Below, in pieces: positions 33,407-49,249 of a stretch of DNA of 56,164 nt; within the stretch, counting starts at the first letter, position 1; each line of letters begins with the position of its first letter. The DNA comes from a virus: positions 1 to 56,164 of the IMG/VR virus record IMGVR_UViG_3300005918_000026. One strand, written 5' to 3'. The translations under genes were made by a program, and so were the position numbers. The notes under the pieces are model-generated. The model had not been told where the DNA came from and searched no databases. It saw only the letters and a program-made list of their open reading frames with translations.

Positions 33407-34195
33407 ATGAACGTAATTATATTCAGCTATAACAGGTACTCACAGTTAGAATTGCTACTAACGTCTCTTAATAAACATTCTCGAGATAATTTAAATATTT
33501 CAATCTTATATCAAGAAAGAGAAGATATTTTACCAGTAAAAAAGACTCAAGATAAAATAGTCAAAAAATTTTCCAAATTAAAAAATATAAGTTCTATAAA
33601 AACAGAATCATCAATAGATTTTAAAAAAGATGTTATTAGACTATTAGATTCTGGGTCAGAACATATATTATTTTGCAGCGACTCCAATATAATATATAGA
33701 CCAATAGATTTTGGGTTGGCAGAAAAATCTTTACAGGAAAATAAAAACGTTGTGTGTTTCTCACTTCGACTTGGGAGAAACATTACACATTGTTATAATA
33801 CACATACTGACAACAATTTGTACGGAGTTGAAGATGATGGGGAAGAGCTTATAAAATGGTTTTGGAACAAAGCTTATTTAGATTTTGGATATCCATTTAG
33901 TTTTGATGGTCATATTTTTAGAACTAAGGAAATAAAACAACTTATAAAAAACGCTAGAGGAAAAACCCCCGTAGAACTAGAAGATGGATTGCAAATTTTT
34001 GACACTTTTCCTAAAGGCGAAATGATGGCCTTTAAAGAAAGTGTATTAGTAAGTAGAGCTGATGTATTAGAAGGTGCTGGGGAGATGCGAGAACTTACTA
34101 TTAGATATGCAGGAGGGGCAAGATTGGTATATACAAACAGCTACTTCAAAGATGTAGACGCCGTAATTAAAGAAATTAATTTAAAATTTAAGTAA
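33407..34195 (+). CDS. Glycosyltransferase-like protein (GT-A pattern)
   Basis: A 262-residue protein. The start MNVIIFSYNRYSQLELLLTS is typical of GT2-type domains, and a variant metal-site strand, HILFCSDSNIIYRP, lies near residue 90 with DSN in place of DxD. The end has a conserved-looking MRELTIRYAGGARLVY. It is the first gene of the glycan cluster and is followed two bases later by the next. Because the DxD motif is altered, activity is uncertain. It may be a diverged or inverting enzyme with other metal ligands. Confidence 0.6.
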   Translation: MNVIIFSYNRYSQLELLLTSLNKHSRDNLNISILYQEREDILPVKKTQDKIVKKFSKLKNISSIKTESSIDFKKDVIRLLDSGSEHILFCSDSNIIYRPIDFGLAEKSLQENKNVVCFSLRLGRNITHCYNTHTDNNLYGVEDDGEELIKWFWNKAYLDFGYPFSFDGHIFRTKEIKQLIKNARGKTPVELEDGLQIFDTFPKGEMMAFKESVLVSRADVLEGAGEMRELTIRYAGGARLVYTNSYFKDVDAVIKEINLKFK

Positions 34196-34196
34196 A

Positions 34197-34511
34197 ATGG
34201 AAGATAGGTACTATATGGGTGAAAAAAAAGAAAAAATTAAAGATAAGGTAATTATGATTTTTTATATTAATATAGGAAATGTGTCCGATGTAGATGTTAA
34301 GCCGTATGTGGAGAAAACAAAAAATGCGCTCAGCTCAAATCATTTATTTGAAGACGTTGTGGAATATTTCATACCAGTGAGAGACCATGAAAGCAAATTG
34401 GAAATTATCGTTCCTGGACAAGATATTCAAAACGAAGAGGCTGTTCTAGAGAAATTAGAAAATATCCAAGAAATGTATAAACAAATTTTAGAAAAATATG
34501 AAACAAAATAA
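34197..34511 (+). CDS. Small protein of unknown function in the glycan cluster
   Basis: A 104-residue, charged protein with a short hydrophobic strand (KVIMIFYINIGNV) and a C-terminal helix (EKLENIQEMYKQILEKYETK). The last 14 bases overlap the next gene. No family is recognised. Similar small proteins with one beta strand pair and a helix occur among phage regulators, but nothing specific supports a role. Confidence 0.5.
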   Translation: MEDRYYMGEKKEKIKDKVIMIFYINIGNVSDVDVKPYVEKTKNALSSNHLFEDVVEYFIPVRDHESKLEIIVPGQDIQNEEAVLEKLENIQEMYKQILEKYETK

Positions 34512-35337
34512 AATTAAATCGATATCTCCGTTCTATAACGCAGAAAAATTCATTGATAAATGTGTAAGTTCTGTGTTGACACAAAGTTATGAAAATTTCG
34601 ATGCTCTTTTTATTGATGATTGTTCAAGTGATGGAAGTTTCGAAGTAATGAAGGCAATGTTTGCAGAAGTTTCGAAAGAAAGGGAGTTTATAGGATACAA
34701 TGGCGTTCTTATTACAGAATATATTTGTACCCCAAAGAGAAAAACCAACGCAAAGTCAATTAAGATATGGCAACGTGCTGAGAGAACATCTGCAGCAGAA
34801 AACTGGTCAGATGCAATATTGAGAGATTGCGAAAAAGAAGACATTGTAGCGTCTCTTGATGGTGACGATTGGCTGTACGACAGAAATGTGCTTAAATATA
34901 TAAATGAACAGTTTCAAGATGAAAACTTGTGGTTTATGTATGGAGGTTGTGCCTGGACAGATGGTCGCAATTGCTGCTCAATACCATATGATAAAAAAGA
35001 TTTTGATAACCTAAGAAAGATTCAAAGGTTTAAGATTTCTCAAATGAGAAACTTTAGAGCAGGATTATTTCAAAAAATACATGAGCTTGACCCAGAACTT
35101 TCTAATTTTAAAAACAAGAAAGGCGAGTTTTATACCATGGCTGGCGATGTAGCTTTAACATATCCCATGTTGGAGATGGCTGGTTTTGACAGAATAAAAC
35201 ATAATACTAAACATTTGTATGTGTACAACCGTCATTCTCCAATCAATAATGATAAAGTTGACCAAAGCTTACAGTGGAATAACCATGCTGAAATTTTAAA
35301 TAAGAAAGCTTTTAAAAAAATTGACACTTACTTGTAA
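34498..35337 (+). CDS. Glycosyltransferase family 2
   Basis: A 279-residue GT-A enzyme. The opening IKSISPFYNAEKFIDKCVSS, DALFIDDCSSDGSFEVM and the donor-site VASLDGDDWLYDRNVL with its DGDD metal motif are standard GT2 features. A later YTMAGDVALTYPMLEMAG segment probably forms the acceptor side. It transfers a sugar from a nucleotide donor to an unknown acceptor, and belongs to a run of overlapping glycan genes. Length is normal for a single-domain GT2. Confidence 0.85.
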   Translation: MKQNKIKSISPFYNAEKFIDKCVSSVLTQSYENFDALFIDDCSSDGSFEVMKAMFAEVSKEREFIGYNGVLITEYICTPKRKTNAKSIKIWQRAERTSAAENWSDAILRDCEKEDIVASLDGDDWLYDRNVLKYINEQFQDENLWFMYGGCAWTDGRNCCSIPYDKKDFDNLRKIQRFKISQMRNFRAGLFQKIHELDPELSNFKNKKGEFYTMAGDVALTYPMLEMAGFDRIKHNTKHLYVYNRHSPINNDKVDQSLQWNNHAEILNKKAFKKIDTYL

Positions 35338-35348
35338 AACATAAATAT

Positions 35349-36074
35349 ATGATTTCAGTAATATTAAACGTATACAAAAGACCTTATAGTCTAGAAAGCC
35401 AGATTGAAGCTATTAAAGCCCAATCAATCTTTATTAAGAGTGAAAATATTCATGTTTGGTATAATCTTCCAGAAGATGGCACTGCTCAGATTCTGCCCAA
35501 GGATAAAAAGATTAAAACTTATAGGTGTAATCACAATACAAAATTCTTTGGCAGGTTCACAATACCTCTAATGTGCAGAACTCCGTACATAGCAATGTTT
35601 GATGATGATGTTATCCCAGGTAAAAAATGGTTTAAAAACTGCATTGACACTATGGATAAACATAATGGCATAATGGGAAGCAGTGGTGTTATTACCAATG
35701 GGAAGACGTATATGCCTCACCAAAAAGTAGGTTGGAACGGTCTTCATTTTGACACAGCTAAAAAAGTGGACTTGGTAGGTCACGGCTGGTTTTTTAGACA
35801 AGAGTGGGCTAAATTTATGTGGCAAGAAGAGCCGCCGTCGTGGCACAACGGAGAGGATATGTTGTTTTCATATGCAGCGCAAAAAAACGATGTTGACACA
35901 TTTGTTCCACCACACCCAAACGAAGATAAAGAATTGTGGGGAAATATTCCAGGAAGAGACCATAATTGGGGCTCAGATAACAATGCAAACTTTCTAACAG
36001 TTAAAGACCATTTTTCCGTTAGAGACCAAATAGTTATAGATTTGAAAGAAAGAGGCTGGAAAACAATTAGATAA
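35349..36074 (+). CDS. Glycosyltransferase-like protein, GT-A fold
   Basis: A 241-residue protein. The opening MISVILNVYKRPYSLESQIE and the metal-binding YIAMFDDDVIPGKKWF with DDD are GT-A hallmarks. VDLVGHGWFFRQEW and PPSWHNGEDMLFSY follow; the HNGED element is likely catalytic or acceptor-binding, as in related enzymes with a conserved E-D pair. It is eleven bases downstream of the previous GT2 gene. The donor and acceptor are unknown. Confidence 0.75.
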   Translation: MISVILNVYKRPYSLESQIEAIKAQSIFIKSENIHVWYNLPEDGTAQILPKDKKIKTYRCNHNTKFFGRFTIPLMCRTPYIAMFDDDVIPGKKWFKNCIDTMDKHNGIMGSSGVITNGKTYMPHQKVGWNGLHFDTAKKVDLVGHGWFFRQEWAKFMWQEEPPSWHNGEDMLFSYAAQKNDVDTFVPPHPNEDKELWGNIPGRDHNWGSDNNANFLTVKDHFSVRDQIVIDLKERGWKTIR

Positions 36075-36084
36075 AATATATGAT

Positions 36085-36840
36085 ATGAAAACATTTAGAG
36101 GTCATTTTGAAATGCTATTAAAAAAATTAGAAGATGGTGAACACATTGCTTATTCTAGATTCTCTGATGGCGAGCTTAGAATTATGCAGAATGTAGAATT
36201 GGTATTAGCAAGCGGTCATTGTAAGATAGGAAAAAAAGTTTCACCCAATCAATATAAAAAAGAAGACCATAAACATTTTATACCATCAGAGCACGCGTTT
36301 TATAGAGAAAAATTAATGGAGGCTTACAGATTCAAGAAAGAAAAATATTTTGTTGGATTAAGCTGCAGGTGTTGTGTTGGAAATTCTGATTTTAAGCAGA
36401 TGTTGGAATGGTACGACGGAGACTCTGAATCAGACAATCTAACCTGGGCTAATCTATTTTTAAATGGCAATTATCCTTTGTTTATGGAAAAAATAGTTCC
36501 GTTGTTTTCTAAGAAAAAAATTGTATATATTTTAAATGAAAATGCAAATACGAAAAATCTTCCATTTGAAGTAGTTAAAGAATTTAAGGTAGGATTCAAC
36601 TGTTTTGTCAATAATTATGATATGATAGAAGAGATTAAAGAATGGATAAAGAAAAATGATATTGAAGACCATATATTTTTATTTTCAGCGTCGTCGCTGA
36701 GCAATCTTATGATTCATCAATTATTTGATTTTTGTGACAAAAATGCCTATCTTGATATAGGAACAACATTAAACCCGATGCTTGGAATGCAAGCTAAAAG
36801 AGGATATCATACTGGAAATAAAAAAATGTGTATATGGTAA
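36085..36840 (+). CDS. GT-D fold glycosyltransferase-like protein
   Basis: A 251-residue protein. The N-terminal AYSRFSDGELRIM fits the RFGDGE-type signature of the GT-D (DUF1792) glycosyltransferases, which use that acidic motif for metal and donor binding. Downstream VYILNENANTKNLPFEVV and FLFSASSLSNLMIHQLF fit the second half of that fold, and AYLDIGTTLNPML matches its closing DIG segment. The GT-D type was described from a streptococcal glycoprotein pathway, so a protein acceptor is possible here; that is inference. Its stop overlaps the next ATG by one base. Confidence 0.65.
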   Translation: MKTFRGHFEMLLKKLEDGEHIAYSRFSDGELRIMQNVELVLASGHCKIGKKVSPNQYKKEDHKHFIPSEHAFYREKLMEAYRFKKEKYFVGLSCRCCVGNSDFKQMLEWYDGDSESDNLTWANLFLNGNYPLFMEKIVPLFSKKKIVYILNENANTKNLPFEVVKEFKVGFNCFVNNYDMIEEIKEWIKKNDIEDHIFLFSASSLSNLMIHQLFDFCDKNAYLDIGTTLNPMLGMQAKRGYHTGNKKMCIW

Positions 36841-37250
36841 TGAAATTAATAAAAAACGAAGAGAAACACTATGAGTTTATCAGAAAATTAAGAACTGATA
36901 AAAGAAATGCTAGCGGTTTTTTTGAACAGGTGGATATTACAACCGAACAGCAAAAAAAATATATGGAAAAATATAGTGATTGTTATTACATTTGTATCCA
37001 AGACGATATTCCTGTTGGATTTATTGGGGCAGTTGATAATGATGTTAGATTAGCTACTTTACCAGAATTAAAAGGAACAGGTATAGGAAAATTCATGCTA
37101 ACCGAGTTTATGAAAACACATCCAAACGCATCAGCAAAAGTAATGCTTGAAAACGAAGTTAGTAACAACCTATTTCAAAAATATGGGTTTATAGGTTTTA
37201 AAAAGGACGAAAATTTTATATATTATAAATATGACACAAAAGAAAATTAA
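36840..37250 (+). CDS. GNAT-family acetyltransferase
   Basis: About 136 residues from the ATG at 36840, which overlaps the upstream stop (TAATG). A longer GTG-start version from 36828 is possible but less likely. GNAT features: YYICIQDDIPVGFIG, then the acetyl-CoA loop ELKGTGIGKFMLTEF, and the closing NLFQKYGFIGF. It probably N-acetylates an amino-sugar nucleotide, given the adjacent aminotransferase-like gene, as in pathways for N-acyl dideoxy-amino sugars. It overlaps the next gene by 20 bases. Confidence 0.8.
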   Translation: MKLIKNEEKHYEFIRKLRTDKRNASGFFEQVDITTEQQKKYMEKYSDCYYICIQDDIPVGFIGAVDNDVRLATLPELKGTGIGKFMLTEFMKTHPNASAKVMLENEVSNNLFQKYGFIGFKKDENFIYYKYDTKEN

Positions 37251-37896
37251 ACACAATCCGTATTCCATAGTAAAACATTTTGAAGAGGAGGTTGCGGAGT
37301 ATACAGGAGCTCCTTATGCGGTGTCTGTTGACAGTTGTACAAATGCCATATTTTTATGTATGAGATACTTTAAAGATGTCATTATGACTAAGCATGAAGA
37401 TTTTGAAATTACCATACCTTCAAAAACTTACTTATCGGTTCCGCAGTCTATAAAACACGCAGGTTTTGATGTTACATTTGACGCGAGAGAGGAAATAAAT
37501 AACTGGAAAGGGATTTATCAACTAAAGCCACTTCCTGTATATGATGCAGCAAAAAGGTTTACTTCAGATATGTATGTGCCCGATACGTTTATGTGCTTGT
37601 CTTTTCACATAAAAAAACAACTTGCACTGGGAAAGGGCGGCATGATTTTGACCGATAATGAAGAGGCTGTAAAATGGTTTAAACAGGCTCGCTACGAAGG
37701 TAGGGGCGAAAAACTGTACCATGAAGATGATATCACAATGTTAGGGTGGAATATGTATATGACACCACAGGAAGCTGCTCACGGATTAGCATTGATGCAG
37801 AACTATCCAGTGGACGTTCCAGACCTAGAGGAAAACAATGGCTATAGAGACTTAACAGAATTTACAGTTTTTAAAGAATATAAAAAAATATTATGA
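37231..37896 (+). CDS. DegT/DnrJ/EryC1-like aminotransferase, short form
   Basis: A 221-residue protein, against about 370 for typical family members. It retains the N-terminal fold (FEEEVAEYTGAPYAVSVDSC), PVYDAAKRF with the ring-stacking region, and the PLP-lysine segment CLSFHIKKQLALGKGGMIL. The tail GWNMYMTPQEAAHGLALM ends where the small C-terminal domain should begin. It may be a real minimal enzyme or a truncated one. Next to a GNAT gene it suggests amino-sugar synthesis. The next gene starts inside its last codons. Confidence 0.7.
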   Translation: MTQKKIKHNPYSIVKHFEEEVAEYTGAPYAVSVDSCTNAIFLCMRYFKDVIMTKHEDFEITIPSKTYLSVPQSIKHAGFDVTFDAREEINNWKGIYQLKPLPVYDAAKRFTSDMYVPDTFMCLSFHIKKQLALGKGGMILTDNEEAVKWFKQARYEGRGEKLYHEDDITMLGWNMYMTPQEAAHGLALMQNYPVDVPDLEENNGYRDLTEFTVFKEYKKIL

Positions 37897-38831
37897 AAAA
37901 AGTTTTAATTACTGGGGGTGCTGGATATATAGGTTCTGTACTTACTAGAACTCTTTTAAAAGAAGGATACAGTGTAACAGTTATAGATAGTTTGATGTAT
38001 AATCAATTGTCTTTATTAGGTGAATGTCAAAATGAAAATTTTAATTTAACTGTTCACAATATAACAGATTTTGAATTTTTAAAAGAAGAGTTGAAAAAAT
38101 ACGATATCATTATCCCCTTAGCTGCAATTGTGGGAGCACCCGCTTGTGATGAAAATAAAGAGCTGGCTACAAAAATAAATTTTGAACAAATAAAGGTTAT
38201 AGTTGATAATTTGACAGAAAATCAAAAGATAATTATGCCTAACACTAATAGTCAATATGGAAGTTCAAAAAACATAATAACCGAGGAAAGCCCTTTTAAC
38301 CCTCTGTCTCATTATGCAGTTACAAAGTGTAAAGCAGAGGATTATGTATTAGAGCATAGCAATGGAATATGTTTGAGGCTTGCAACTGTTTTTGGAACTT
38401 CCCCTCGAATGAGAACAGATTTACTCGTCAACGATTTTGTTTACAAGTCTATTGTAGATGGTTATCTAATTTTATTTGAACCCAATTTTAATCGTAATTA
38501 TATCCACATACAGGATATAGCAAACACTTTTTTGTTTTGCATAGAGCATTATAGTTCTATGAAAAAAGATGTATATAACGTAGGACTTTCAGATGCTAAT
38601 TTAACCAAGGCTGAGTTAGCAAGTGCTATAAAAAAACAAATACCAAACCTTGTAATTAAAGAAGATGATTATAAAAGTGATGCTGACCAGCGCAATTACA
38701 TAGTTTCTAATGAAAAATTAGAGTCTTGCGTATGGAGGCCAAACCACAGTATTGACGAAGGTATTCAAGAATTGCTAAAAGGTTATAAAATGGTCATAAA
38801 ATTCAACAATAAAAATTTCACAAACTTATGA
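37893..38831 (+). CDS. NAD-dependent epimerase/dehydratase (extended SDR)
   Basis: A 312-residue protein. The Rossmann motif ITGGAGYIGSVL is at residues 6-17, followed by an LAAIVGAPACDENKE segment. The catalytic region HYAVTKCKAEDYVLE has the YxxxK pair. A C-terminal sugar-binding part includes NRNYIHIQDIANTF and VYNVGLSDANLT. It acts on an NDP-sugar; the specific substrate cannot be read from sequence. It overlaps both neighbours by four bases, so it is part of one operon. Confidence 0.8.
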   Translation: MKKVLITGGAGYIGSVLTRTLLKEGYSVTVIDSLMYNQLSLLGECQNENFNLTVHNITDFEFLKEELKKYDIIIPLAAIVGAPACDENKELATKINFEQIKVIVDNLTENQKIIMPNTNSQYGSSKNIITEESPFNPLSHYAVTKCKAEDYVLEHSNGICLRLATVFGTSPRMRTDLLVNDFVYKSIVDGYLILFEPNFNRNYIHIQDIANTFLFCIEHYSSMKKDVYNVGLSDANLTKAELASAIKKQIPNLVIKEDDYKSDADQRNYIVSNEKLESCVWRPNHSIDEGIQELLKGYKMVIKFNNKNFTNL

Positions 38832-39703
38832 TAACTTTTACTAAAATAGGCTCGCTAGGAAGATTGGGAAACCAAATGTTCCAATACGCTGCGCTAAGAG
38901 GGTTATCTTTAAAAAATGGGTATGAGGTGAAAATTCCAAACCCAAAATCAAGGGCGTGGCAAGGGCAAAAATGTTTATTAGGAGAATTTAATATAGAAGC
39001 TTCTTATTTAGAATCCTCCGATTTAAAAAATATTGTTAAACGATACAATGAGCCGTCTTGGAAAACAATTGATAAAAACTTTTTTGACATACTTGATAAT
39101 ACTGATATTAGCGGATTTTTTCAAAGCACGTTTTATTTTGAAGAGTTTGCTGAAAATATAAAAAAAGAGTTGAGACCAAAAGAACACCATATTCAAAAAA
39201 ACAAGATGTTTATAGATGAAATAAAAAATAAATATCCAGAATATGAGTTGGTGTCGGTTCATATTAGAAGAGGGGATAATACGCAGGGGCTAAATAATGG
39301 AGTAGCAAGTCAGATATATCCTAAAATATATGATAAAGGGGGGCTCTATTTTCAATATTTTGAGAAAGCCAAAAAAATATTTGAGAAAAAAAAGGTGAAA
39401 TATATTGTTTTTTCTGGAGGTGCTAGAGGAAGCGAGGATAATAAAAGCGATATAGATTGGTGCAAATCTACTTTTAAGGGAAACGATTATATATTTTCAG
39501 ACGGGTGCGAACCGCTCGATGATTTTTGCAGGATTATGTTGTGCGACCATAACATAATGTGTCATATTAGTAGTTTTGGTTGGTGGGCAGCTTTTCTTAA
39601 TGAGAACGAAAATAAAATTGTTACCGCTCCAAAATTTTATCATCCAGAAGACCAATCTTTAATAAGAACAAAATTTTATCCAAAAGAATTTAAAATAATT
39701 TAA
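38828..39703 (+). CDS. GT11-type alpha-1,2-fucosyltransferase
   Basis: A 291-residue protein. GT11 landmarks are GRLGNQMFQYAALRGLSLKN at the start, LVSVHIRRGDNTQ near residue 142 (the HxRRxD motif) and MCHISSFGWWAAFLN with SSFGWW near residue 245. These enzymes transfer L-fucose from GDP-fucose to a galactose-like acceptor. A GDP-L-fucose synthase lies about 4.6 kb downstream in the same cluster, consistent with a dedicated fucose pathway. Length is normal for the family. Confidence 0.88.
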   Translation: MITFTKIGSLGRLGNQMFQYAALRGLSLKNGYEVKIPNPKSRAWQGQKCLLGEFNIEASYLESSDLKNIVKRYNEPSWKTIDKNFFDILDNTDISGFFQSTFYFEEFAENIKKELRPKEHHIQKNKMFIDEIKNKYPEYELVSVHIRRGDNTQGLNNGVASQIYPKIYDKGGLYFQYFEKAKKIFEKKKVKYIVFSGGARGSEDNKSDIDWCKSTFKGNDYIFSDGCEPLDDFCRIMLCDHNIMCHISSFGWWAAFLNENENKIVTAPKFYHPEDQSLIRTKFYPKEFKII

Positions 39704-39715
39704 AACAATTGAACA

Positions 39716-40405
39716 ATGAAATTAGTATTTGATATCGGATATAACAACGGGGATTTTACAAAAGAATGTTTAAAAAGATTTCCTGACAGCAAGGTTACTG
39801 CTGTGGAGGCTAATCCGAACTTATGTTTAAGAAAAAACCCTCCAAATTGCACTTTACTAAATAGGCTTGCTGCTGAAACAAGTGAAGAGTTAGTCGATTT
39901 TTATATCGCACCACATCAATCAGGAATCTCGACTGCATCCGTAGAGTTTATGCAAAATTCTCGATTCACCAAAGGTAGTAAGAATTTGCCTAAGAAATCT
40001 GGACGTTGGAATAAAATCCCTATAAAAATAAAATCAATCACGCTTGATAAAATGATTGAAATTTATGGAACCCCAGATTTGATGAAAATAGATGTGGAAG
40101 GATATGAATTTAATGTTTTAAAAGGATTGACTAAGAAAGCAAAAGATATTTGTTTTGAATGGCATGAAGAAGAATATGATAACCTGCTTAAGATTGTTGA
40201 ACATTTACAAAAAATAGGCTATGAGCAGTTCGGAGTTATCGGATGGTTTGATGAAAGAGACGTTTTCGAAAAAGCAACTTTCTCAAAAAAAGGAGACCCT
40301 TATATGGAATATCCAAAGAATTTTTACACCTGGGAGGAGTTAGACATGCCTAAGCTTGTAAACCCAGAAAGAAGAGTTAATTACGGAATGTTTTTTGCTA
40401 AATAA
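39716..40405 (+). CDS. FkbM-type methyltransferase, copy 1
   Basis: A 229-residue protein. The SAM-binding motif is near the start (KLVFDIGYNNGDFTKECLKR), with KVTAVEANPNLC as motif II and a LMKIDVEGYEFNVLKGL segment, the strongest FkbM signature, in the second half. FkbM enzymes usually O-methylate sugars. It is one of three FkbM-like proteins in the cluster, which differ in sequence and so probably in acceptor. The end has ICFEWHEEEYDNLL. Confidence 0.8.
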   Translation: MKLVFDIGYNNGDFTKECLKRFPDSKVTAVEANPNLCLRKNPPNCTLLNRLAAETSEELVDFYIAPHQSGISTASVEFMQNSRFTKGSKNLPKKSGRWNKIPIKIKSITLDKMIEIYGTPDLMKIDVEGYEFNVLKGLTKKAKDICFEWHEEEYDNLLKIVEHLQKIGYEQFGVIGWFDERDVFEKATFSKKGDPYMEYPKNFYTWEELDMPKLVNPERRVNYGMFFAK

Positions 40406-40414
40406 TTATAAAAT

Positions 40415-41323
40415 ATGAAAATAGTTGTAGATAGCGGCGGCGAGTATAAAGATATGATAAATAGTTATTATGACCTGGAAAGGTATAATGACGATTCAGA
40501 AGAGTGTGTTTTATTTTTAGGTTATAAAACGTCAAATGATGAACAATTAAAAAAGAAATTTGCTCATATACCCAAGAGAATTTATATTAATTTAGAGGCC
40601 CCATGTTCTTTTACTGGCACCAAAACAGCTGTAAGTAGCCAAAATTATTTTACACATGTATACACAATTTGTCCCTATACGGCAGAGTGGCTTAAAGATA
40701 AATCGGACACTAAGTATATTCCAATACCATTTCCTTTTAATGCTGACAGTTTTAAACATTTAGATTATAGTATAGATAAAGAATATGATGTTATGTACAT
40801 GGGCACCATTATGGATAACGCCCATAAGAACATGCTCTTTACAATGAAAAAACATAAATATATATTAACCTCACTGTTCCAATATCCAGGTGTCACACAT
40901 GTTAATATTAACAGTGCTAAAAAATGGGAGTTACTTAGCAAGTCTAAAGCCTCTATTGCAATGAATGTTGCTCCGATTGCTGGACAACACAAAAATTTTA
41001 TAAAACAATATAACAAATGGGATGAAAATGAAGCATTTAAACATTTAGATGTTAATTATATTCCTCAATTTAAACCAAGAGTAATTGAGTCTATGATGTG
41101 CAAAACTCTTGTTTTGGTTAAAAAAGACCCTTGGAATGTTATTGAAAAATGGTTTGAGCCCGATAAACATTTTATCTATTGGGACAACCTTCAAGAGCTA
41201 AATACATTGTTAGAACATATCAAACACAACCTTGACACATATCAAGATATTGTAGATGCTGCTTATAGTAAAGTCCAAGAATATGAAATACATTATTTAT
41301 ATAAAAATCTGATACATGATTAA
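40415..41323 (+). CDS. Glycosyltransferase-like protein, GT-B pattern
   Basis: A 302-residue protein. The first half has KRIYINLEAPCSFTG and TICPYTAEWL. The second half has YDVMYMGTIMDNAHK and the donor-domain FKPRVIESMMCKTLVLVKKD, a GT-B signature with a conserved Glu in the RVIESM segment. The end is a helical region. It is probably a nucleotide-sugar transferase, with unknown donor and acceptor. It overlaps the next gene by eight bases. Confidence 0.7.
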   Translation: MKIVVDSGGEYKDMINSYYDLERYNDDSEECVLFLGYKTSNDEQLKKKFAHIPKRIYINLEAPCSFTGTKTAVSSQNYFTHVYTICPYTAEWLKDKSDTKYIPIPFPFNADSFKHLDYSIDKEYDVMYMGTIMDNAHKNMLFTMKKHKYILTSLFQYPGVTHVNINSAKKWELLSKSKASIAMNVAPIAGQHKNFIKQYNKWDENEAFKHLDVNYIPQFKPRVIESMMCKTLVLVKKDPWNVIEKWFEPDKHFIYWDNLQELNTLLEHIKHNLDTYQDIVDAAYSKVQEYEIHYLYKNLIHD

Positions 41324-42035
41324 TGCAACGTTTATTAACAAAAGGCACATTAAGTTGTCTGATAGAGTACGTCAAGTAATGGGCTCTTCCAGAAATGGTC
41401 AAATTTATGAACTAGGAATGGTGCAAGCATTTTTTAATAAAATGGTTGCTATTCCAAGAGATAAATATGTTTATTTAGATATTGGAGCTAATACAGGAAG
41501 TTATGCCTTGTTGCCAATAATAAAAGATAATATAACTTGTCATGCATTTGAGCCTAATCCTGTTGCCTATGATGTACTAAAAGAAAACGTTGAATTGAAC
41601 AATTTAAAAAATACTCATATTCACAATATGGGTTTTTGGAAAGAAGATAAAGAGCTAGAACTTAAGACTCCAAAAGATTTATCCGATAGTGGACTATCAA
41701 CACTTGGAGAAAATCCAACAAGATTTAAATATTCTAATAAAACAGGGGAGTATACTACTCAAAAGGTTGAGTGTAAGAAAATTGATACTATTGTTGAAGA
41801 GCTTAAATTAGAAGAAGTTCACGCTATTAAAATTGATACAGAAGGGGCTGAATTGCTCATACTACAAGGGGGCGAAAAAACATTGAAGTCTCAAAAGCCT
41901 TTATTGTTATTGGAATACGACGATAAAAACACAAAACAGTTTGGATATCTAAGAGAAGATATTAAAAATTTGCTAATTTTATATGGATATGATAATTTTG
42001 TTATGTATGGAAAAAGTGATATATTTGTTTTTTAA
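41316..42035 (+). CDS. FkbM-type methyltransferase, copy 2
   Basis: A 239-residue protein. A near-textbook SAM site YVYLDIGANTGSYAL near residue 50, CHAFEPNPVAYDVLKENVEL as motif II, and the FkbM signature HAIKIDTEGAELLILQGG followed by KPLLLLEYDD. It likely O-methylates a sugar in the cluster's product. Of the three FkbM-like copies it is the closest to family consensus. Confidence 0.88.
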   Translation: MINATFINKRHIKLSDRVRQVMGSSRNGQIYELGMVQAFFNKMVAIPRDKYVYLDIGANTGSYALLPIIKDNITCHAFEPNPVAYDVLKENVELNNLKNTHIHNMGFWKEDKELELKTPKDLSDSGLSTLGENPTRFKYSNKTGEYTTQKVECKKIDTIVEELKLEEVHAIKIDTEGAELLILQGGEKTLKSQKPLLLLEYDDKNTKQFGYLREDIKNLLILYGYDNFVMYGKSDIFVF

Positions 42036-42037
42036 TT

Positions 42038-42751
42038 ATGGAAAAAAAATATGCTAAAATTGTTGCCGCTAGTTTTGCCAAAGTGGGTACTCAAACGGTA
42101 GATAGGTCATTAAAAGAAAAATGTGAACACGCACAGTCAATTGTTCGACTTAAAAAATATTTTGAGAATGGGAATACATTATTTATTTGTGGTGTTCGAG
42201 AATTTGTTGGCAGGAATATGTCTTATTTTTTCCAAACAATAAGCGATAAGACGCATAATGATGTAAAACACAAAGGAAATGATTATAAAGGAGAGCTTTG
42301 TTTTCTAGGAGAGCAGCAAGCGGTTCAAAAAATGGACATAGATTTTTTAATCGACACTTTCTATAAAAGAAAATAGATGCACGAAACACCCGTTGTGTGG
42401 TTTGAAGAGTTCTTTGAAACAGTTGGGTTTAATTACAAAACAGAAGCATTTAACAAAGAAAAAGGATATCAGTTTTACAATTTAAAAAACAATAATAATT
42501 TACTGTTATATAGGCTTGACGATATTGTCGCTATGATAAAAAATGTTGATATATTCAAAAATAAAGTCATTAGCACAAATATTGGAGCGAAAAAATGGTA
42601 TAAAAGTCAATATAAAAATTTCAAAGATGAGATAAGTTTTTCTGATGAGTATTTAGAAAAACAACTTAATAATGATGTTATGAAATTTTTTTATCTTGAC
42701 AAAGAAAAAGATACATTTATAAAAAAATATAGAGTTGGTGGTAAAATATAA
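42038..42751 (+). pseudogene. NKWYS-family capsule-type protein, split by an in-frame TAG
   Basis: Two consecutive ORFs, 112 and 124 codons, in the same frame, separated by a single TAG at 42374-42376 and followed at once by ATG. The paralogue at 42735 has TGG (Trp) at that position. The joined protein would be 237 residues: a P-loop-like start SFAKVGTQTVDRSL, CGVREFVGRNMSYFF resembling the second sulfotransferase PAPS-site motif, and IGAKKWYKSQYKNFKDEIS with MKFFYLDKE, typical of the NKWYS putative capsular polysaccharide synthesis family. It may be inactivated, or made as two coupled chains. Confidence 0.7.
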
Positions 42752-43446
42752 TAAAACTATAAGAATTGCAAATTTTGCTAAAGTGGGAACGCACACTGTT
42801 ACCAAGTCGCTAAAAAAGGGGTATATAAAGAAAAGTGCTCACTCTACGCATGTTTTAAAACTTTGGAATAATGGTCAAAAAAATGATTTGATTATTGTCG
42901 GGTTTAGAGAATTTGTTGGCAGAAACATGTCTTAATTTTTTCAAACATTTTGCAGTAAAATTTATAATGATGTAAAACACAAAGGGAATAATTATAAGGG
43001 AGAGCGTGGTTTCGTAGGTACGTCAAAAGTTTTGCAAAAAATGGAAACCATATCTTTAGCTGAAATTTTTTTTAAAAGAGGCTGGATGCATGAAACACCG
43101 TTAATATGGATGCAAGAAGCTTTTGATGTCTTGAAATTTGATTGTAAAAAAAGAAACATTTGACAAAGAAAGAAAATATCAGCTTTATGAATTAAAAAGC
43201 GGTAATTATTTATTATTATATCGAGTAGATGGTGTGGATGATATGATTAATGAGTTGGATATTTTTGGCGAAATAAAATATGACAACATAGGGAGTGAAA
43301 AACATTATGGCAATAAGTATAAAGAGTTTAAAGATAACATTTGTTTTACAGATAATTATTTGGAAACTCAATTAAATAATGATATTATGAAATTCTTTTA
43401 TACTGAGAGTGAAATTAATAATTTTATAAAAAAATACAAAAGATGA
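42735..43446 (+). pseudogene. NKWYS-family paralogue with a nonsense codon and a frameshift
   Basis: A tandem paralogue of the preceding gene, about 236 codons if restored. Its start is non-ATG (TTG at 42735 or GTG at 42738), overlapping the end of copy 1. TAA at 42933-42935 replaces the Tyr codon of copy 1 in GRNMSYFF, and seven A residues at 43146-43152 add one base relative to copy 1, shifting the frame after FDCKK. The last part is open again as 102 codons containing IGSEKHYGNKYKEFKDNICF and MKFFYTESE. At least two lesions make a functional product unlikely unless they are sequencing errors. Confidence 0.75.
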
Positions 43447-44378
43447 AATTTTGGAAAAACAAAAAAGTTTTAATCACTGGAGCTAGCGGATTTGTTGGCC
43501 AAAACCTAGTTAAAAAACTCAAAGAAATTGGTGTGAAAAATTTATTAACACCTAGTAGCAGTGAACTTGATTTGACAAGTGAAGCTTCTGTTAAAAAATA
43601 TTTTGAATCTAACAAGCCTGGGATTGTATTTCACATGGCAGGTAAAGTAGGCGGGATAGGAATTAATAAAGAGAAACCAGCTGAGTTTTACTATGACAAT
43701 GCTATTATGGGTTTGTTAATAACACATTACGCGTACAAAACAGGCGTTGAGAAACTAGTTTCCGTTGCCGCTGGATGTGGATACCCACTTGGTCTTGAAA
43801 CTCCATATGCAGAGGAGGATTTTTGGAAAGGCCTCCCTGATGAAAACTCTCTAGGATATTCAATGGCGAAAAAGAATTTAATTTTACAATCATGGACATA
43901 TAGAAAACAATATGGATTCAATTCAACCGTTTTATTGCCAGCCAATATTTATGGACCTCATGACAACTTCAATTTAGATACTTCCCATGTAGTTCCTGCT
44001 CTAATTAAGAAGTTTATAGAGGCTAAGAAAAATAATGATAACTCTGTTGTTGTATGGGGGAGCGGTATTGCCTCTCGAGAATTTCTATATGTAGAAGATA
44101 TGGTCAATGTTTTAGTTGATATTGCAGAAAAATATGATGAAAGTGGACCACTTAATCTTGGAACTGGAGTTGAAACTACTATTAAAGAGCTGATAGAAAC
44201 TATTAAGGAGATAACAGAGTTTGAAGGTGAAATCGTATGGGACTCTTCAAAGCCTGATGGTCAAATAAAGCGTTATTATGATATGAGCAAGCTTGAAAAA
44301 ACTCTTGGGTATGTTCCTTCTACGAAGGTTAAAGATGGATTGATTAAAACTATTAAATGGTATAAAAATGAATATTAA
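43443..44378 (+). CDS. fcl: GDP-L-fucose synthase
   Basis: A 311-residue extended SDR. GDP-fucose synthase hallmarks: LITGASGFVGQNLV, FHMAGKVGGIGINKEKPAEF, the SVAAGCGYP segment, catalytic YSMAKKN (Tyr-x3-Lys), LPANIYGPHDNFNLDTSHVV followed by PALIKKF, and IASREFLYVEDM. It converts GDP-4-keto-6-deoxymannose to GDP-L-fucose. The usual preceding enzyme, GDP-mannose 4,6-dehydratase, is not in this window, so the host may supply the substrate or the gene lies elsewhere. It probably feeds the GT11 fucosyltransferase at 38828. Confidence 0.9.
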   Translation: MKFWKNKKVLITGASGFVGQNLVKKLKEIGVKNLLTPSSSELDLTSEASVKKYFESNKPGIVFHMAGKVGGIGINKEKPAEFYYDNAIMGLLITHYAYKTGVEKLVSVAAGCGYPLGLETPYAEEDFWKGLPDENSLGYSMAKKNLILQSWTYRKQYGFNSTVLLPANIYGPHDNFNLDTSHVVPALIKKFIEAKKNNDNSVVVWGSGIASREFLYVEDMVNVLVDIAEKYDESGPLNLGTGVETTIKELIETIKEITEFEGEIVWDSSKPDGQIKRYYDMSKLEKTLGYVPSTKVKDGLIKTIKWYKNEY

Positions 44379-45078
44379 CGGTCTTAGATTGGATAATAAT
44401 GGAAAATTAGATATTCCAGCCCATATTGAAAATATCAAAATAGATGTTGGCTTATCATGGTGTGCCCCAAACTCTGCCAGATGGTTGTTCGGAGAGGATA
44501 AATTGTTTGTTATTGGGGTAGAGCCAAATGACCAAGCTATTAAAAGTATCAAAGATAAAGGCATGGTTTGGCACAAAACAACAGAAGTTGTTTATAATGA
44601 AGATAATTATATGTTACTTGAATGTGCTCTCGATAATGTTGACGAGTTACAAATGGTTGATTTTTATCACATGGAGGGAGACCCAGGCACATCTAGTTTA
44701 ATGAAGCCGTCTCCAAAGCTTGTAAAAAAACAGAAGATTGATTTTGTAAAAAAAGTTCCCGTTATATCTCTTTCTGATATTTTAGAAAAAATACCTTGGG
44801 ATAGATTTGAATATATCGAACATATTAAAACTGACGCTCAGGGAAAAGATTTATGTGTGTTTATGAGCGCTGGAGACTATATTGAAAAAGTTGTTTACTT
44901 AGATGTTGAAGTGTCTACAGCAGGACACTATATGAATGAGATAAATGAGAACCATGTAGTCCAAATAATCAAAGAAAAAGGATTTAAAGTTCTTAAAAGG
45001 GGCATGAACACTACTTTTTTAAATACGAGATATGAAAATATTCACAAAAACATTAAACATTTAATAATAGGATGTTAA
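44368..45078 (+). CDS. FkbM-type methyltransferase, diverged copy 3
   Basis: A 236-residue protein. The SAM-site strand is atypical (KIDVGLSWCAPNSARWLFGE), followed by FVIGVEPNDQAI as motif II and EHIKTDAQGKDLCVFMSAGD in place of the usual IKIDxEGxE segment. The altered motifs suggest a distinct acceptor or reduced activity. A helix-rich C-terminus ends with NIHKNIKHLIIGC. Its ATG overlaps the fucose synthase stop by 11 bases. Confidence 0.65.
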   Translation: MNINGLRLDNNGKLDIPAHIENIKIDVGLSWCAPNSARWLFGEDKLFVIGVEPNDQAIKSIKDKGMVWHKTTEVVYNEDNYMLLECALDNVDELQMVDFYHMEGDPGTSSLMKPSPKLVKKQKIDFVKKVPVISLSDILEKIPWDRFEYIEHIKTDAQGKDLCVFMSAGDYIEKVVYLDVEVSTAGHYMNEINENHVVQIIKEKGFKVLKRGMNTTFLNTRYENIHKNIKHLIIGC

Positions 45079-45093
45079 AAATTTAAAACAATT

Positions 45094-46080
45094 ATGAAAA
45101 AAATATTAATCACAGGAGGAGCTGGTTTTATAGGTTCTCATTTAGCAAAAAGACTTGTTAAGCAAGGTCATGAAGTTACAGTTGTAGATAATTTTGAAAG
45201 AGGTAAAATTGAATATCTAAAAGACTGTGAGGGTTTTCCTAATTTGCGAATTGTCCATTCGGATTTGCGAGAAATTAGTGAGAATGATAGCGAATCTTTA
45301 TTTGAGGATGTTGATACGGTAATTCACATGGCGTCAAAAGTTGGTGGCATTAACACATATCTTTCAAAACCGTATGAGGTGATGGCGGCTAACATTAAAA
45401 TAGACTCTAATGTTCTTAATGCAGTTATAAAAAATGGAATACCAAGATATTATTATGCATCAAGCGCTCATGTATATCCCAAAAATTTACAAGGCGATAA
45501 AGACTCTCCAAAAATATCGGAGAACGAGGTTATTCCTGCAGACCCAGAGCTTTCTTATGGGTGGGGTAAACTAATTGGAGAAAAAATGGTTGAATACGCA
45601 TGTCAAGAAAACTCTACTTTGCGAGCTGCGGTTGGTCGATTTATAGGTATTTATGGAGAAAATCAAGATTTTGACCTTGAAACAGGTTCTGTAATTCCAG
45701 TTTTTTCACACAGAGCGGTTAAACATCCTGAAATTCCTTTTATTGTTAAAGGTACAGGAGAGGAAACTAGGTCTTATTGTTTTATAGAGGATGCTTTAGA
45801 TTGTATTGAGTTAATGTTGGATAAATTAGACAACCAGCAGATAATAGGCCCTCTTAACGTTGGAAAGGAAGAAAGAATATCAATTAAGAATATTGCTGAA
45901 AAAATCATTGACATTTCTGGTAAAAATGTTTATATTGATTTTGATAGGAGTTGTAAGACTGTTATTTGGGGGCAATGGTGTGATTTATCAAAAACAAAGA
46001 AAGTTCTTGACTGGGAGGCAAAAACCACCATGGAGCAAGGGTTAAAAAAAGTTTACGAAGATATTAAAAAAAGATTATAA
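45094..46080 (+). CDS. NAD-dependent sugar epimerase (GDP-mannose epimerase-like SDR)
   Basis: A 328-residue protein. The Rossmann motif ITGGAGFIGSHLAKRLVKQG is at 6-25, with VIHMASKVGGINTYLSKP and YYASSAHVYP, catalytic SYGWGKLIGEKM (Tyr-x3-Lys) and GTGEETRSYCFIEDALDC. The MASKVGGI and SSxxVYP elements place it near GDP-mannose 3,5-epimerase and related 4-epimerases. Substrate specificity remains open. It stops one base into the next ATG (TAATG). Confidence 0.82.
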   Translation: MKKILITGGAGFIGSHLAKRLVKQGHEVTVVDNFERGKIEYLKDCEGFPNLRIVHSDLREISENDSESLFEDVDTVIHMASKVGGINTYLSKPYEVMAANIKIDSNVLNAVIKNGIPRYYYASSAHVYPKNLQGDKDSPKISENEVIPADPELSYGWGKLIGEKMVEYACQENSTLRAAVGRFIGIYGENQDFDLETGSVIPVFSHRAVKHPEIPFIVKGTGEETRSYCFIEDALDCIELMLDKLDNQQIIGPLNVGKEERISIKNIAEKIIDISGKNVYIDFDRSCKTVIWGQWCDLSKTKKVLDWEAKTTMEQGLKKVYEDIKKRL

Positions 46081-46508
46081 TGAAAGAAAGAAAATACTTA
46101 CCAACGCTATCCGAACTTGTAGATAGATTGTCTATTGCACAATTAAAAGAAGTTTTCATCACAGAACATAAAGAGGAATATGGAGATGAAATTAAAGATA
46201 TTCTTCACGATATTGACCTGCTTTTAATAGAACAGGCCGAGCTAAATGGTGATGAGAAACCAACTATTAATGCTGAAACAATTAGAGCGATAGTTGTATT
46301 ATCTCAAATGAATTTGCACATCTGGCACAATGAGTCAAATTATAGAAAAGGTATTAAAGATGGTAATGACTTAGAATTGACACATGGTCTCAACGGAATA
46401 AGAAATGTTGCAAAAAACAAAATTCAAGAGCGTGTTGGCGGTCGTAAAGATTATAAAATAGATTGCTTAGCTGCTGATTTTAAAGACTGGGAGATTAGCT
46501 GGAATTAA
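46080..46508 (+). CDS. DUF4254-like protein
   Basis: A 142-residue helical protein. LPTLSELVDRLSIAQLKEVFI at the start and the central MNLHIWHNESNYRKGIKDGN resemble the DUF4254 pattern, in which a RLSI-x-x-LK helix precedes a W/ED-rich helix. Such genes occur in bacterial polysaccharide clusters but have no established function. It sits between the epimerase and the heptose-kinase-like gene, which fits a helper role. Confidence 0.55.
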   Translation: MKERKYLPTLSELVDRLSIAQLKEVFITEHKEEYGDEIKDILHDIDLLLIEQAELNGDEKPTINAETIRAIVVLSQMNLHIWHNESNYRKGIKDGNDLELTHGLNGIRNVAKNKIQERVGGRKDYKIDCLAADFKDWEISWN

Positions 46509-46519
46509 AAACTGATTTA

Positions 46520-47266
46520 ATGAAAAAAATTTTAGTAATTGGCGACAGTTGCCAAGATATATACATTTATGGAAAGTGTGAAAGACTTTGTCCTGATGCG
46601 CCCGTTCCCGTTTTTACTCCAAAACATAAAACTGAAACAGGCGGCATGGCAAAAAATGTATACAATAATCTGGTGAGCCTGGAAAGTGATTGTCATCTGT
46701 TAACTAATCAGACAGAAATTACAAAAACGAGATATGTTGACGACAAAACAAATCAGATGTTGGTACGTGTAGATGTTGGCGAAGACGATGTTGACGAAAT
46801 TGATTTACATGACGTAGAGTTGGGAAAATATGATGCAATTGTTATATCAGACTATGTAAAAGGATTCTTAAATCAAAAAACAATTCAACTGTTGTGTGAG
46901 TCGCACGATACTGTTATCATCGACACAAAAAGACTTCTTGGAAAATACATTGAGAAAGCTGCTTTTATTAAATTGAATGGTCAAGAATATAAACAATCGA
47001 AACACATCTTAGAAACTCTTCCTCATTTAGAAGATAAGATTTTAATTACTCTTGGCAATGGTGGTTGTACTTATCAAGGATGTAATTATCCTGTAGAAAA
47101 AGTTGATATTAAAGACCAGACTGGGGCTGGCGATACTTTTACAGCTGCCTTTATCTTAAAATTTTTAGAAGAAAAAGACATTTCAAAATCTATTATATAT
47201 GCTAACGATTGTGCAACTCAAGTAGTTCAAAAACGAGGAGTTGCTACAGTTAAAAAAACTAAATAA
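46520..47266 (+). CDS. PfkB-family sugar kinase, heptose-7-phosphate kinase-like
   Basis: A 248-residue protein. LVIGDSCQDIYIYGKCERLC followed by PDAPVPVF and TGGMAKNVYNNL corresponds to the HldE/RfaE kinase N-terminus. VISDYVKGFL and the catalytic-site DQTGAGDTFTAAFILKFLEE follow (GAGD with the catalytic Asp). Bacterial RfaE/HldE is about 475 residues with a second nucleotidyltransferase domain, absent here. It probably phosphorylates a heptose-7-phosphate en route to NDP-heptose; partner enzymes are not in the window. Confidence 0.82.
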   Translation: MKKILVIGDSCQDIYIYGKCERLCPDAPVPVFTPKHKTETGGMAKNVYNNLVSLESDCHLLTNQTEITKTRYVDDKTNQMLVRVDVGEDDVDEIDLHDVELGKYDAIVISDYVKGFLNQKTIQLLCESHDTVIIDTKRLLGKYIEKAAFIKLNGQEYKQSKHILETLPHLEDKILITLGNGGCTYQGCNYPVEKVDIKDQTGAGDTFTAAFILKFLEEKDISKSIIYANDCATQVVQKRGVATVKKTK

Positions 47267-47271
47267 CACTT

Positions 47272-48249
47272 ATGAAACCAATAGATTACAAAACAACAGA
47301 CGATAAATCATATTATAAAAGAAAAGATTATTCAGTAAAGATTAATGCAGTTGATAATATTGTGAAAAGCCTACAAGGTGTAAATAAAATTTTTGATTGT
47401 GGTTGTAACAATGGTAATGTATCATATCCTTTACAAAAAAAATATAATAAAACGGTTATAGGTATGGATTTATCTACCGATTTAAACCCGCCTAAAGATT
47501 ATAGTTTTATTAATGGAGATATTGCTAAAATCAATCATAATTTATCTAGTGATTGTACAATTTTTTTAAGCCTATACCACCATATGTTAGGCAAATACGG
47601 TTTAGATGTTGCAGACGATATATTTTATAAGCTATTGTTTAATAGTAAATATTTAATATTTGATACTGGAAATGTATCAGAAAGCCAAAGAAGAGACCAT
47701 TATTGGTATAAAAAACAAAAGGAACATTTTAAAAATGAAGATGAATTATTAAATCATTTTGGCGTTAAATATGAAAGGTATAATTCTTATAATGTGGGGG
47801 GCGGTGCTAGAAGCATTGTTCTTTTTAAAAATGATAAAACTACCGATTTTAAAGTATTACAAACACTTAAAAGAAAACATGGGTCTGAAAAACAAAATAA
47901 AGGACTGTTTGGCATTAATACTCCTGGGACTAATTTTTATGATAGTAAAGTTGCAACGGTTTTTACTCAATTAAAATTAGGAAATAAAACTATGTTTGGG
48001 AAAAAAGTAGTTATACCAAATCGACATGATACAGAAATGGAAAATATCAACCTAGCTTATCAACATATCAGTTCTGATAAATTAATTAAATTTTATGGTT
48101 ATCATGAAACATATGGATTTTTATTTGAATGGGTTGATGATTTTAAATATTTAAATAGAACTAAATTAACAGTGGGCAGCGTAGAGCTTGTTGATGTTGA
48201 TGTGATAGAAATAAATGGTGTAAAAAAATATATTGATTTTGAAAGATAA
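47272..48249 (+). CDS. Methyltransferase-like protein with a kinase-like C-terminal region
   Basis: A 325-residue protein. The first half (about 1-200) is a class I SAM-dependent methyltransferase: NKIFDCGCNNGNVSYPLQ, VIGMDLSTDLNPP and TIFLSLYHHMLG. The second half carries SKVATVFTQLKLGNKTMFGK and LIKFYGYHETYGFLFEWVDD, reminiscent of the start of a phosphotransferase/protein-kinase-like fold but ending early. The fusion is unusual; methylation of a sugar or phospho-sugar is possible. Its 3' end overlaps the WecB-like gene. Confidence 0.65.
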   Translation: MKPIDYKTTDDKSYYKRKDYSVKINAVDNIVKSLQGVNKIFDCGCNNGNVSYPLQKKYNKTVIGMDLSTDLNPPKDYSFINGDIAKINHNLSSDCTIFLSLYHHMLGKYGLDVADDIFYKLLFNSKYLIFDTGNVSESQRRDHYWYKKQKEHFKNEDELLNHFGVKYERYNSYNVGGGARSIVLFKNDKTTDFKVLQTLKRKHGSEKQNKGLFGINTPGTNFYDSKVATVFTQLKLGNKTMFGKKVVIPNRHDTEMENINLAYQHISSDKLIKFYGYHETYGFLFEWVDDFKYLNRTKLTVGSVELVDVDVIEINGVKKYIDFER

Positions 48250-49249
48250 ACAGATATTAGTAACTTACGGCACTAGACCAGAATATATAAAAATTCTACC
48301 TCTTATTAAGGAGATGGAAAAAAGACAAATGCGATTTAAAACTTTGTTTACAGGGCAACATAAAGATATTGTTCCTGATGGGGCAGATTTCAACTTAGAA
48401 ATGAAAGATTTCGGCGGCAACAGATTAGACTCTGTTTTGAAAAACTGCCTGTCAACCCCTGAGGTATGTTTTGAGGGTATTAAATATGTTTTGGTACAAG
48501 GAGATACTACGTCGGTAGTTGGTCTAGCTATGGCCGCAATGCACAGACAAATCAAGGTGATTCACCTAGAGGCTGGACTTAGAACTTATGATAAGAAGAA
48601 TCCATACCCAGAAGAGACAAACAGGAGAATAGTATCATCAATTGCTGATATTCACCTGTGTCCAACAGTTTTAAATAAAGAGAATTTGAAAAATGAAAAA
48701 GTGGGGGGTGATATATATATTGTAGGAAACACTGTGTTAGATAATTTGCTGGAATATAAAAAAGATTGTGAATATACAAATAAAGTTTTGGTCACAATGC
48801 ACAGGCGAGAAAATCATTGGAACATGCATAAATGGTTTGCGGAAATAAATCTACTTGCTAAAACACACTCTCATTTGGAGTTTATTATACCATTGCATCC
48901 AAATCCAAACGTGCAAAAACATAAACATTTGTTAGAAAATGTTAAAATTGTTAATCCTCTTTCTCACGATGAGCTTATTAAAATCTTAGTTAAATGTCGA
49001 TTTGTAATAACGGATAGTGGAGGCTTGCAAGAAGAGTGCAGTTACTTCAATAAGAAGTGTCTAGTTTGCCGAAAAGTTACCGAGAGGCCAGAGTCAGTGG
49101 GCTCTACAAGTTTTATGGTAGAAGACCCTTTCGATTTAAGTATATTATTTAATATTTATATATATGATTATAAGACAGATACAGTTTCTCCATATGGAGA
49201 TGGAAAAAGCGCAAAAAAGATTTGTGACATTTTTCAAGATAACTATTAG
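48233..49249 (+). CDS. wecB: UDP-N-acetylglucosamine 2-epimerase (WecB-like)
   Basis: A 338-residue protein. Family motifs are complete: VTYGTRPEYIKILPLI, HLEAGLRTYD, PEETNRRIVSSIAD, LCPTVLNKENLKNE, VTMHRRENHW, ITDSGGLQEE and TERPESVGS. It makes UDP-ManNAc from UDP-GlcNAc for polysaccharide synthesis. The start is non-ATG: TTG at 48233 (or a second TTG at 48239), overlapping the upstream gene by 17 bases, with no usable ATG nearby. It is the last gene of the continuous cluster. Confidence 0.92.
   Translation: MILKDKQILVTYGTRPEYIKILPLIKEMEKRQMRFKTLFTGQHKDIVPDGADFNLEMKDFGGNRLDSVLKNCLSTPEVCFEGIKYVLVQGDTTSVVGLAMAAMHRQIKVIHLEAGLRTYDKKNPYPEETNRRIVSSIADIHLCPTVLNKENLKNEKVGGDIYIVGNTVLDNLLEYKKDCEYTNKVLVTMHRRENHWNMHKWFAEINLLAKTHSHLEFIIPLHPNPNVQKHKHLLENVKIVNPLSHDELIKILVKCRFVITDSGGLQEECSYFNKKCLVCRKVTERPESVGSTSFMVEDPFDLSILFNIYIYDYKTDTVSPYGDGKSAKKICDIFQDNY

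Follow-up and report, generated by a model that had tools for sequence, protein, structure and literature searches.

A conserved GT-D, GNAT and small aminotransferase cassette in uncultured T4-like phages, with a possible role in glycosylation of the phage particle

A multi-gene glycosyltransferase and sugar-nucleotide cluster was found inside a T4-like phage genome at positions 33407-49249 of the analysed sequence, and its core, consisting of GT2/WecB, GT-D, GNAT and DegT genes, is found again in hundreds of sequences from uncultured phages. This core appears to be undescribed in the literature searched. Cytoplasmic glycosylation of virion proteins is the role that we prefer, at just short of even confidence, over remodelling of the host LPS via host exporters. 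The window, meaning the whole stretch analysed, is a complete IMG/VR record of 56,164 bp, classed as linear, and is a fragment of a phage genome.

The T4-like context of the cluster is certain. The window encodes a gp23-like capsid protein, a head maturation (prohead) protease, tail sheath, tube and fibre proteins, a head-tail adaptor and PhoH, and phage backbone genes flank the cluster on either side. The initial annotation had claimed about twenty packed plus-strand glycan genes in a T4-like phage, and this was borne out by 21 plus-strand genes, two of them broken tandem copies, with spacings of -20 to +15 bp; the interval is essentially 100% coding, without a long non-coding stretch. The interval as drawn holds a real cluster, but glycan genes were also found past 49249 and at 27454. 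Downstream of the cluster stand, in order, a backbone gene (49314-50873, plus strand; PHROG 1745, E 2e-154), a gene that is HAD-like by eye, a GT-B gene (52294-53565, plus strand; PF00534 just over the cut-off), a GT-A-like gene recognised by eye as a probable glycan gene (53540-54490, plus strand) and a gp55-like sigma candidate, the two glycosyltransferase genes being syntenic in relatives. A separate glycosyltransferase gene lies among the structural genes (27454-28842, minus strand; PHROG 7162, E 4.6e-35). The gp23-like capsid gene (19717-21375, minus strand) matches the Gp23 profile in two parts that are separated by an insertion, and its product shares 28-47% identity with the capsids of cassette-carrying contigs. 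Three consecutive minus-strand genes at 3974-5999, apparently tandem paralogues, match the same virion families (PHROG 8510 and 24074) and adjoin a gene for a 1284-aa tail-fibre-like protein. A gene at 25096-27402 (768 aa; PHROG 2426, E 1.5e-136) is on the plus strand, and the structural genes around it are on the minus strand.

Within the cluster, the first gene (33407-34195) is GT2-like by eye, with a weak resemblance at the N-terminus and no Pfam or PHROG match; it is followed by a gene for a 104-aa protein with no family match (34197-34511) and by a GT2 glycosyltransferase gene (34498-35337; PF00535, E 3.8e-11). The core cassette comprises another GT2 gene (35349-36074; PF00535, E 2.3e-7), for which identities in viral loci reach 71%, a GT-D-like gene (36085-36840), a GNAT N-acetyltransferase gene (36828-37250; PF00583, E 1.9e-7), whose family has PseH as nearest solved relative, and a gene for a small aminotransferase of the DegT/DnrJ/EryC1/StrS family, termed here mini-DegT (37231-37896; PF01041, E 9.8e-22). 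The next genes encode an SDR nucleotide-sugar epimerase/dehydratase (37893-38831; PF01370, E 3.8e-30), a GT11 enzyme of the fucosyltransferase-type family (38828-39703; PF01531, E 2.5e-23), an FkbM methyltransferase (39716-40405; PF05050, E 3.9e-19), a GT-B-like glycosyltransferase (40415-41323; PF13524, E 7.3e-8) and a second FkbM methyltransferase (41316-42035; PF05050, E 1.3e-19). Beyond two interrupted NKWYS genes lie an SDR gene (43443-44378), a third FkbM gene (44368-45078; PF05050, E 1.4e-5), a further SDR nucleotide-sugar epimerase/dehydratase gene (45094-46080; PF01370, E 2.8e-46), genes for a 142-aa helical protein (46080-46508) and a compact PfkB kinase (46520-47266), a gene whose product has a weak methyltransferase N-terminus (47272-48249; PF13649, E 0.0026, below cut-off) and one for a WecB-type non-hydrolysing UDP-GlcNAc 2-epimerase (48233-49249; TIGR00236, 236 bits, above the NCBIfam cut-off of 210). 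Profile matches agreed with the initial GT2, GT11, GT-B, SDR, GNAT, WecB and FkbM calls. Other names hold in part. The SDR at 43443 has GDP-L-fucose synthase as its best family match (NF047922, 280 bits), but this is under the equivalog cut-off of 500; the kinase matches TIGR02198 (E 2.6e-37) below cut-off, together with PHROG 8133 (E 1.2e-78) and PDB 4e84, and 'HldE kinase-like' therefore means closest to that enzyme. The GT-D protein has no match of its own, but PF22882 is matched by 11 of 23 aligned members of its family (best E 2e-4).

The two NKWYS genes (PF10364, putative capsular polysaccharide synthesis) stand in tandem at 42038-43446, share 66% DNA identity and are interrupted at different places, copy 1 (42038-42751; E 2e-6) by an in-frame stop and copy 2 (42735-43446; E 3.8e-4) by a stop and a frameshift. 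This points either to turnover of genes in the cluster or to an error in the sequence. Recoding was set aside because the stop positions differ and one copy also carries the frameshift.

A single scan across 2.9 million viral contigs gave 95 relatives of the mini-DegT, of which 80 were kept (47-74% identity), as against five found with the same DegT patterns over 84,980 prokaryotic genomes. Four of the five were on MAG contigs at 47-71% identity and one was a fragment match at 26%; the contig at 71%, which carries the whole cassette, looks like a phage contig binned with the genome. Recent transfer from host O-antigen loci, which the initial annotation had put forward for checking, was not shown; the core is viral and largely phage-specific, and such an acquisition is unsupported. 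A megablast search of the cluster against INPHARED gave no match. The usual order in viral loci is WecB/GT2, GT-D, GNAT and mini-DegT, and in the loci selected by DegT the GNAT gene is directly upstream in 44 and the GT-D gene two genes upstream in 38. Because those loci had been picked by DegT, the retrieval was repeated with GT-D, which has 193 viral relatives. In the 79 loci taken for the neighbourhood count, some of them on shared contigs, a mini-DegT gene was present within 5 kb in 75 and a GNAT gene was adjacent in 71. As the GT-D query alone also recovers the triad, the three genes form a real module that does not stem from the choice of query. WecB relatives are present in 36 viral loci, and the 3 loci returned by a single-sequence WecB scan are due to the pattern limit of that scan. 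The genes downstream of the core vary (GT11, FkbM, GT-B, fucose-synthase-like and other SDR genes, the 142-aa protein and the kinase), which is consistent with a shared gene pool.

The aminotransferase call stood as to family, since the mini-DegT matches PF01041 at 78 bits with a cut-off of 19.8, but the protein is truncated, having 221 aa as compared with about 375 aa in the full-length family, and it falls outside the full-length two-domain type of about 360-400 aa. Nearly all members of the mini-DegT family have 196-241 aa. All 56 aligned mini-DegTs keep the PLP lysine, Lys129, and the aspartate, Asp105, and 52 of them have Asn174. A structural model from this 56-sequence alignment (pLDDT 92.5, pTM 0.89) matched GDP-perosamine synthase, ArnB, PseC and PglE in the PDB with E values of about 1e-9 to 1e-8 and TM-scores, normalised by the PDB targets, of 0.34-0.42; Lys129 aligned with the SFFGNK lysine of GDP-perosamine synthase, for which the PDB match includes the K186A mutant. 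Compared with GDP-perosamine synthase, PseC and ArnB, the mini-DegT has the same fold, the catalytic lysine, the conserved aspartate and a GGMI-type motif, but is without the C-terminal part and is shortened in the middle, making it an unusually small PLP sugar aminotransferase. The cluster does not encode a pseudaminic acid pathway, as the PseC profile scored 47 bits against an NCBIfam cut-off of 423 and none of PseB, PseG, PseI and PseF was seen in the cluster. Judged from their families, DegT and GNAT together most likely produce an N-acetylated amino-deoxysugar nucleotide, with the keto sugar coming from the host or from an SDR of the cluster.

The 142-aa protein was found in at least 497 viral contigs, the best 80 of which share 77-84% identity with it, and had no match in 50,697 INPHARED records, nor any PHROG or PDB match. 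Among uncharacterised phage proteins it is very widespread, yet records of cultured phages contain no match to it. It was also absent from 397 other genomes sampled in the phylum of the one MAG whose phage-like contig has it. A sub-threshold match to DUF4254 (19 bits, cut-off 27) points to a distant likeness, and the model is helical with moderate confidence (pLDDT 70.5); assignment of a function by fold was given up at this pLDDT and with no PDB match. The HldE-like kinase gene lies directly 3' of the 142-aa gene in 29 of 80 loci, and a recurrent operon combines the 142-aa protein and the kinase with an Mpo1-like protein, an SDR, an HldE-type nucleotidyltransferase, a small HAD protein and a cupin. 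Our guess, and no more than that, is that the 142-aa protein assists sugar-nucleotide enzymes. Among ADP/GDP-heptose pathway genes the window has the kinase-like gene only, while the nucleotidyltransferase and the small HAD are found in relatives. The Mpo1-like protein (PF06127, 99 aa) is encoded inside a phage kinase/nucleotidyltransferase operon at L147:11132-11431, plus strand. A split E1-dehydrogenase/transketolase-like pair of 210 and 182 aa (L120:10971-11603 and L177:9351-9899, both minus strand), which matches PF00676 and PF02779 and represents both halves of PHROG 34187, also lies close to full-length DegT and RmlC-like genes in related phages and perhaps serves a branched-chain or heptose sugar.

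Attempts to find export, initiation and polymerisation genes, using Wzx (PF01943), WbaP-type (PF02397), Wzy/ligase (PF04932) and WecA-type (PF00953) profiles, gave no match in any of 50 viral records, whereas 9 to 13 of 14 control genomes matched these families. The records were 49 with mini-DegT and one with a flanking gene; several are near-duplicates, nine exceed 130 kb and most are fragments, so that an export gene could lie elsewhere in these phage genomes. By a crude hydropathy scan, one of 1177 neighbouring proteins looked polytopic (at least 3 TM segments) and none in the cluster had a TM segment. The machinery of the cluster is soluble, and it therefore fits cytoplasmic glycosylation of protein (or DNA) or the use of host exporters, and not a self-contained Wzx/Wzy O-antigen or capsule locus. 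The initial annotation had proposed three roles, in host surface change, in blocking superinfection and in glycosylation of virion proteins or DNA; the glycan cluster itself stands, a self-contained O-antigen or capsule system does not, the virion and host-exporter routes are left and DNA is unlikely.

Since the core is phage-specific and export machinery was not found, the phages may decorate their own particles and not only the host surface. The module would then be a phage-owned, soluble system of glycan assembly, as proposed from gene content, conserved order, near-restriction to viruses and active-site residues. The mini-DegT would aminate a keto nucleotide sugar and the GNAT would then acetylate the product, so that an N-acetylated amino-deoxysugar nucleotide of PseC/PseH or perosamine type results. 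Further activated sugars could come from WecB, the SDRs, the fucose-synthase-like enzyme and the HldE-like kinase, and a short oligosaccharide would be assembled in the cytoplasm by GT-D, GT2, GT11 and GT-B enzymes and capped through methylation by the FkbM enzymes. The acceptor would most likely be a virion protein, namely capsid, sheath or fibre, and the particles would be sugar-coated, with the coat diversifying as phages swap genes. Against this reading, surface polysaccharide loci commonly contain FkbM, WecB and NKWYS families, phage-made sugars could be exported by host flippases and polymerases, and the HldE-like kinase is without its nucleotidyltransferase in the window. Precedents include virus-encoded soluble glycosylation in NCLDVs (PMC4691112) and glycans on mycobacteriophage capsid and tail tube, as cited in PMC12619734. 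Chloroviruses and mimiviruses likewise encode glycosyltransferases and sugar-nucleotide enzymes, including fucose and amino-deoxysugar routes (PMC4691112), although their virion glycan is demonstrated whereas that of the phage cassette is deduced from genes, the enzymes differ and the phage host is bacterial.

The alternative that the cassette remodels the host O-antigen or capsule, with lipid-linked host precursors being modified in the cytoplasm by phage sugars and glycosyltransferases, exported by host Wzx/Wzy or ABC systems and blocking superinfection, is a serious one that we nevertheless regard with some doubt. Large glycan clusters are already known in T4-like cyanophages, pelagimyophages and jumbo phages, and in the available portions of PMC7029224 (pelagimyophages) and PMC7824862 (jumbo cyanophages) a change of O-antigen is favoured for similar clusters, with no test for export genes given there. 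The enzyme families are also typical of O-antigen loci. However, export, polymerisation and initiation genes were present in none of the 50 records, and the core is almost absent from the scanned bacterial genomes, so that the cassettes are not copies of a host locus. The P-SSM2-type LPS clusters similarly combine several glycosyltransferase families, SDRs, a PfkB kinase and cupins in a T4-like genome, but those portions of the two papers name neither the GT-D-GNAT-mini-DegT core nor the 142-aa protein for them, and the lack of export genes in the 50 records speaks against an O-antigen reading of the present cassette.

Modification of phage DNA bases against restriction, as in T4 glucosylation, is improbable. 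Phages of the wider group commonly glycosylate their DNA, and soluble glycosyltransferases on a T4-like backbone would suit this, but known systems need far fewer sugar genes, and four large relatives have thymidylate-synthase-family matches in which the synthase Asn motif PFNIA is retained. No hydroxymethylase was found among these matches (the weaker G048 and G049 being outside the count), and as the synthase Asn is kept, hydroxymethylcytosine DNA gets no support from the four relatives. DNA glycosylation in the wider group is also noted in PMC12619734; for the present cassette it has little support.

Bacterial DNA misassembled onto the phage contig at 33407-49249 would account for the large O-antigen-like gene content, but such a chimera, considered in the initial annotation, has a negligible probability and is ruled out in the main by synteny, independent contigs placing the same core beside the same backbone genes (PhoH, HAD, GT-B, GT-A and sigma-like genes in the same order downstream of the cassettes in L005, L007, L011 and L017-L020), and by mean GC3, with matching values of 0.255 for the cluster and 0.233 for the backbone (standard deviations near 0.04), the nearest relatives of the core being viral as well.

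Two contigs, L063 and L069, share about 600 bp at 92% DNA identity limited to DegT, with unlike neighbours, and other contig pairs are similar, which suggests exchange at the level of the gene. DegT identity is mostly 64-76% where the capsids share just 28-47% with that of the window; DegT evolves slowly, and therefore no direction or date of exchange is given. In corrected trees DegT was too conserved for good resolution. Capsid and DegT identities were also compared by rank (rho 0.11), but this value was discarded because the wrong DegT paralogue had entered for three records. A reading of 'identical' DegT rows of L057 and L058 as very recent swaps was dropped too, since the near-identical DegT matches did not include that DNA pair.

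So far, such glycan clusters of phages have for the most part been interpreted as O-antigen machinery. Because no export or initiation genes were found in the 50 contigs and the core is phage-specific, the alternative of a glycosylated particle is directly testable. An isolate relative, Flavobacterium phage immuto (NC_055915), makes the question of the acceptor (virion, host surface or DNA) testable: it encodes a mini-DegT with 45% identity, next to which lie a PglD-like 'pilin glycosylation' gene, an SDR gene and glycosyltransferase genes, although its cluster has an additional full-length WecE-like aminotransferase and a different gene order, and the 142-aa protein was not found in it in the INPHARED search. 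We put forward, as a tentative general proposal, that uncultured large T4-like phages share a soluble, phage-specific virion-glycosylation system built on the mini-aminotransferase, GNAT, GT-D and the 142-aa partner, in which swapping from a gene pool diversifies the coat, as a bacteriophage equivalent of autonomous glycosylation in giant viruses. If true, many uncultured T4-like phages would wear a genetically encoded, exchangeable sugar coat, which could affect adsorption, decay and recognition.
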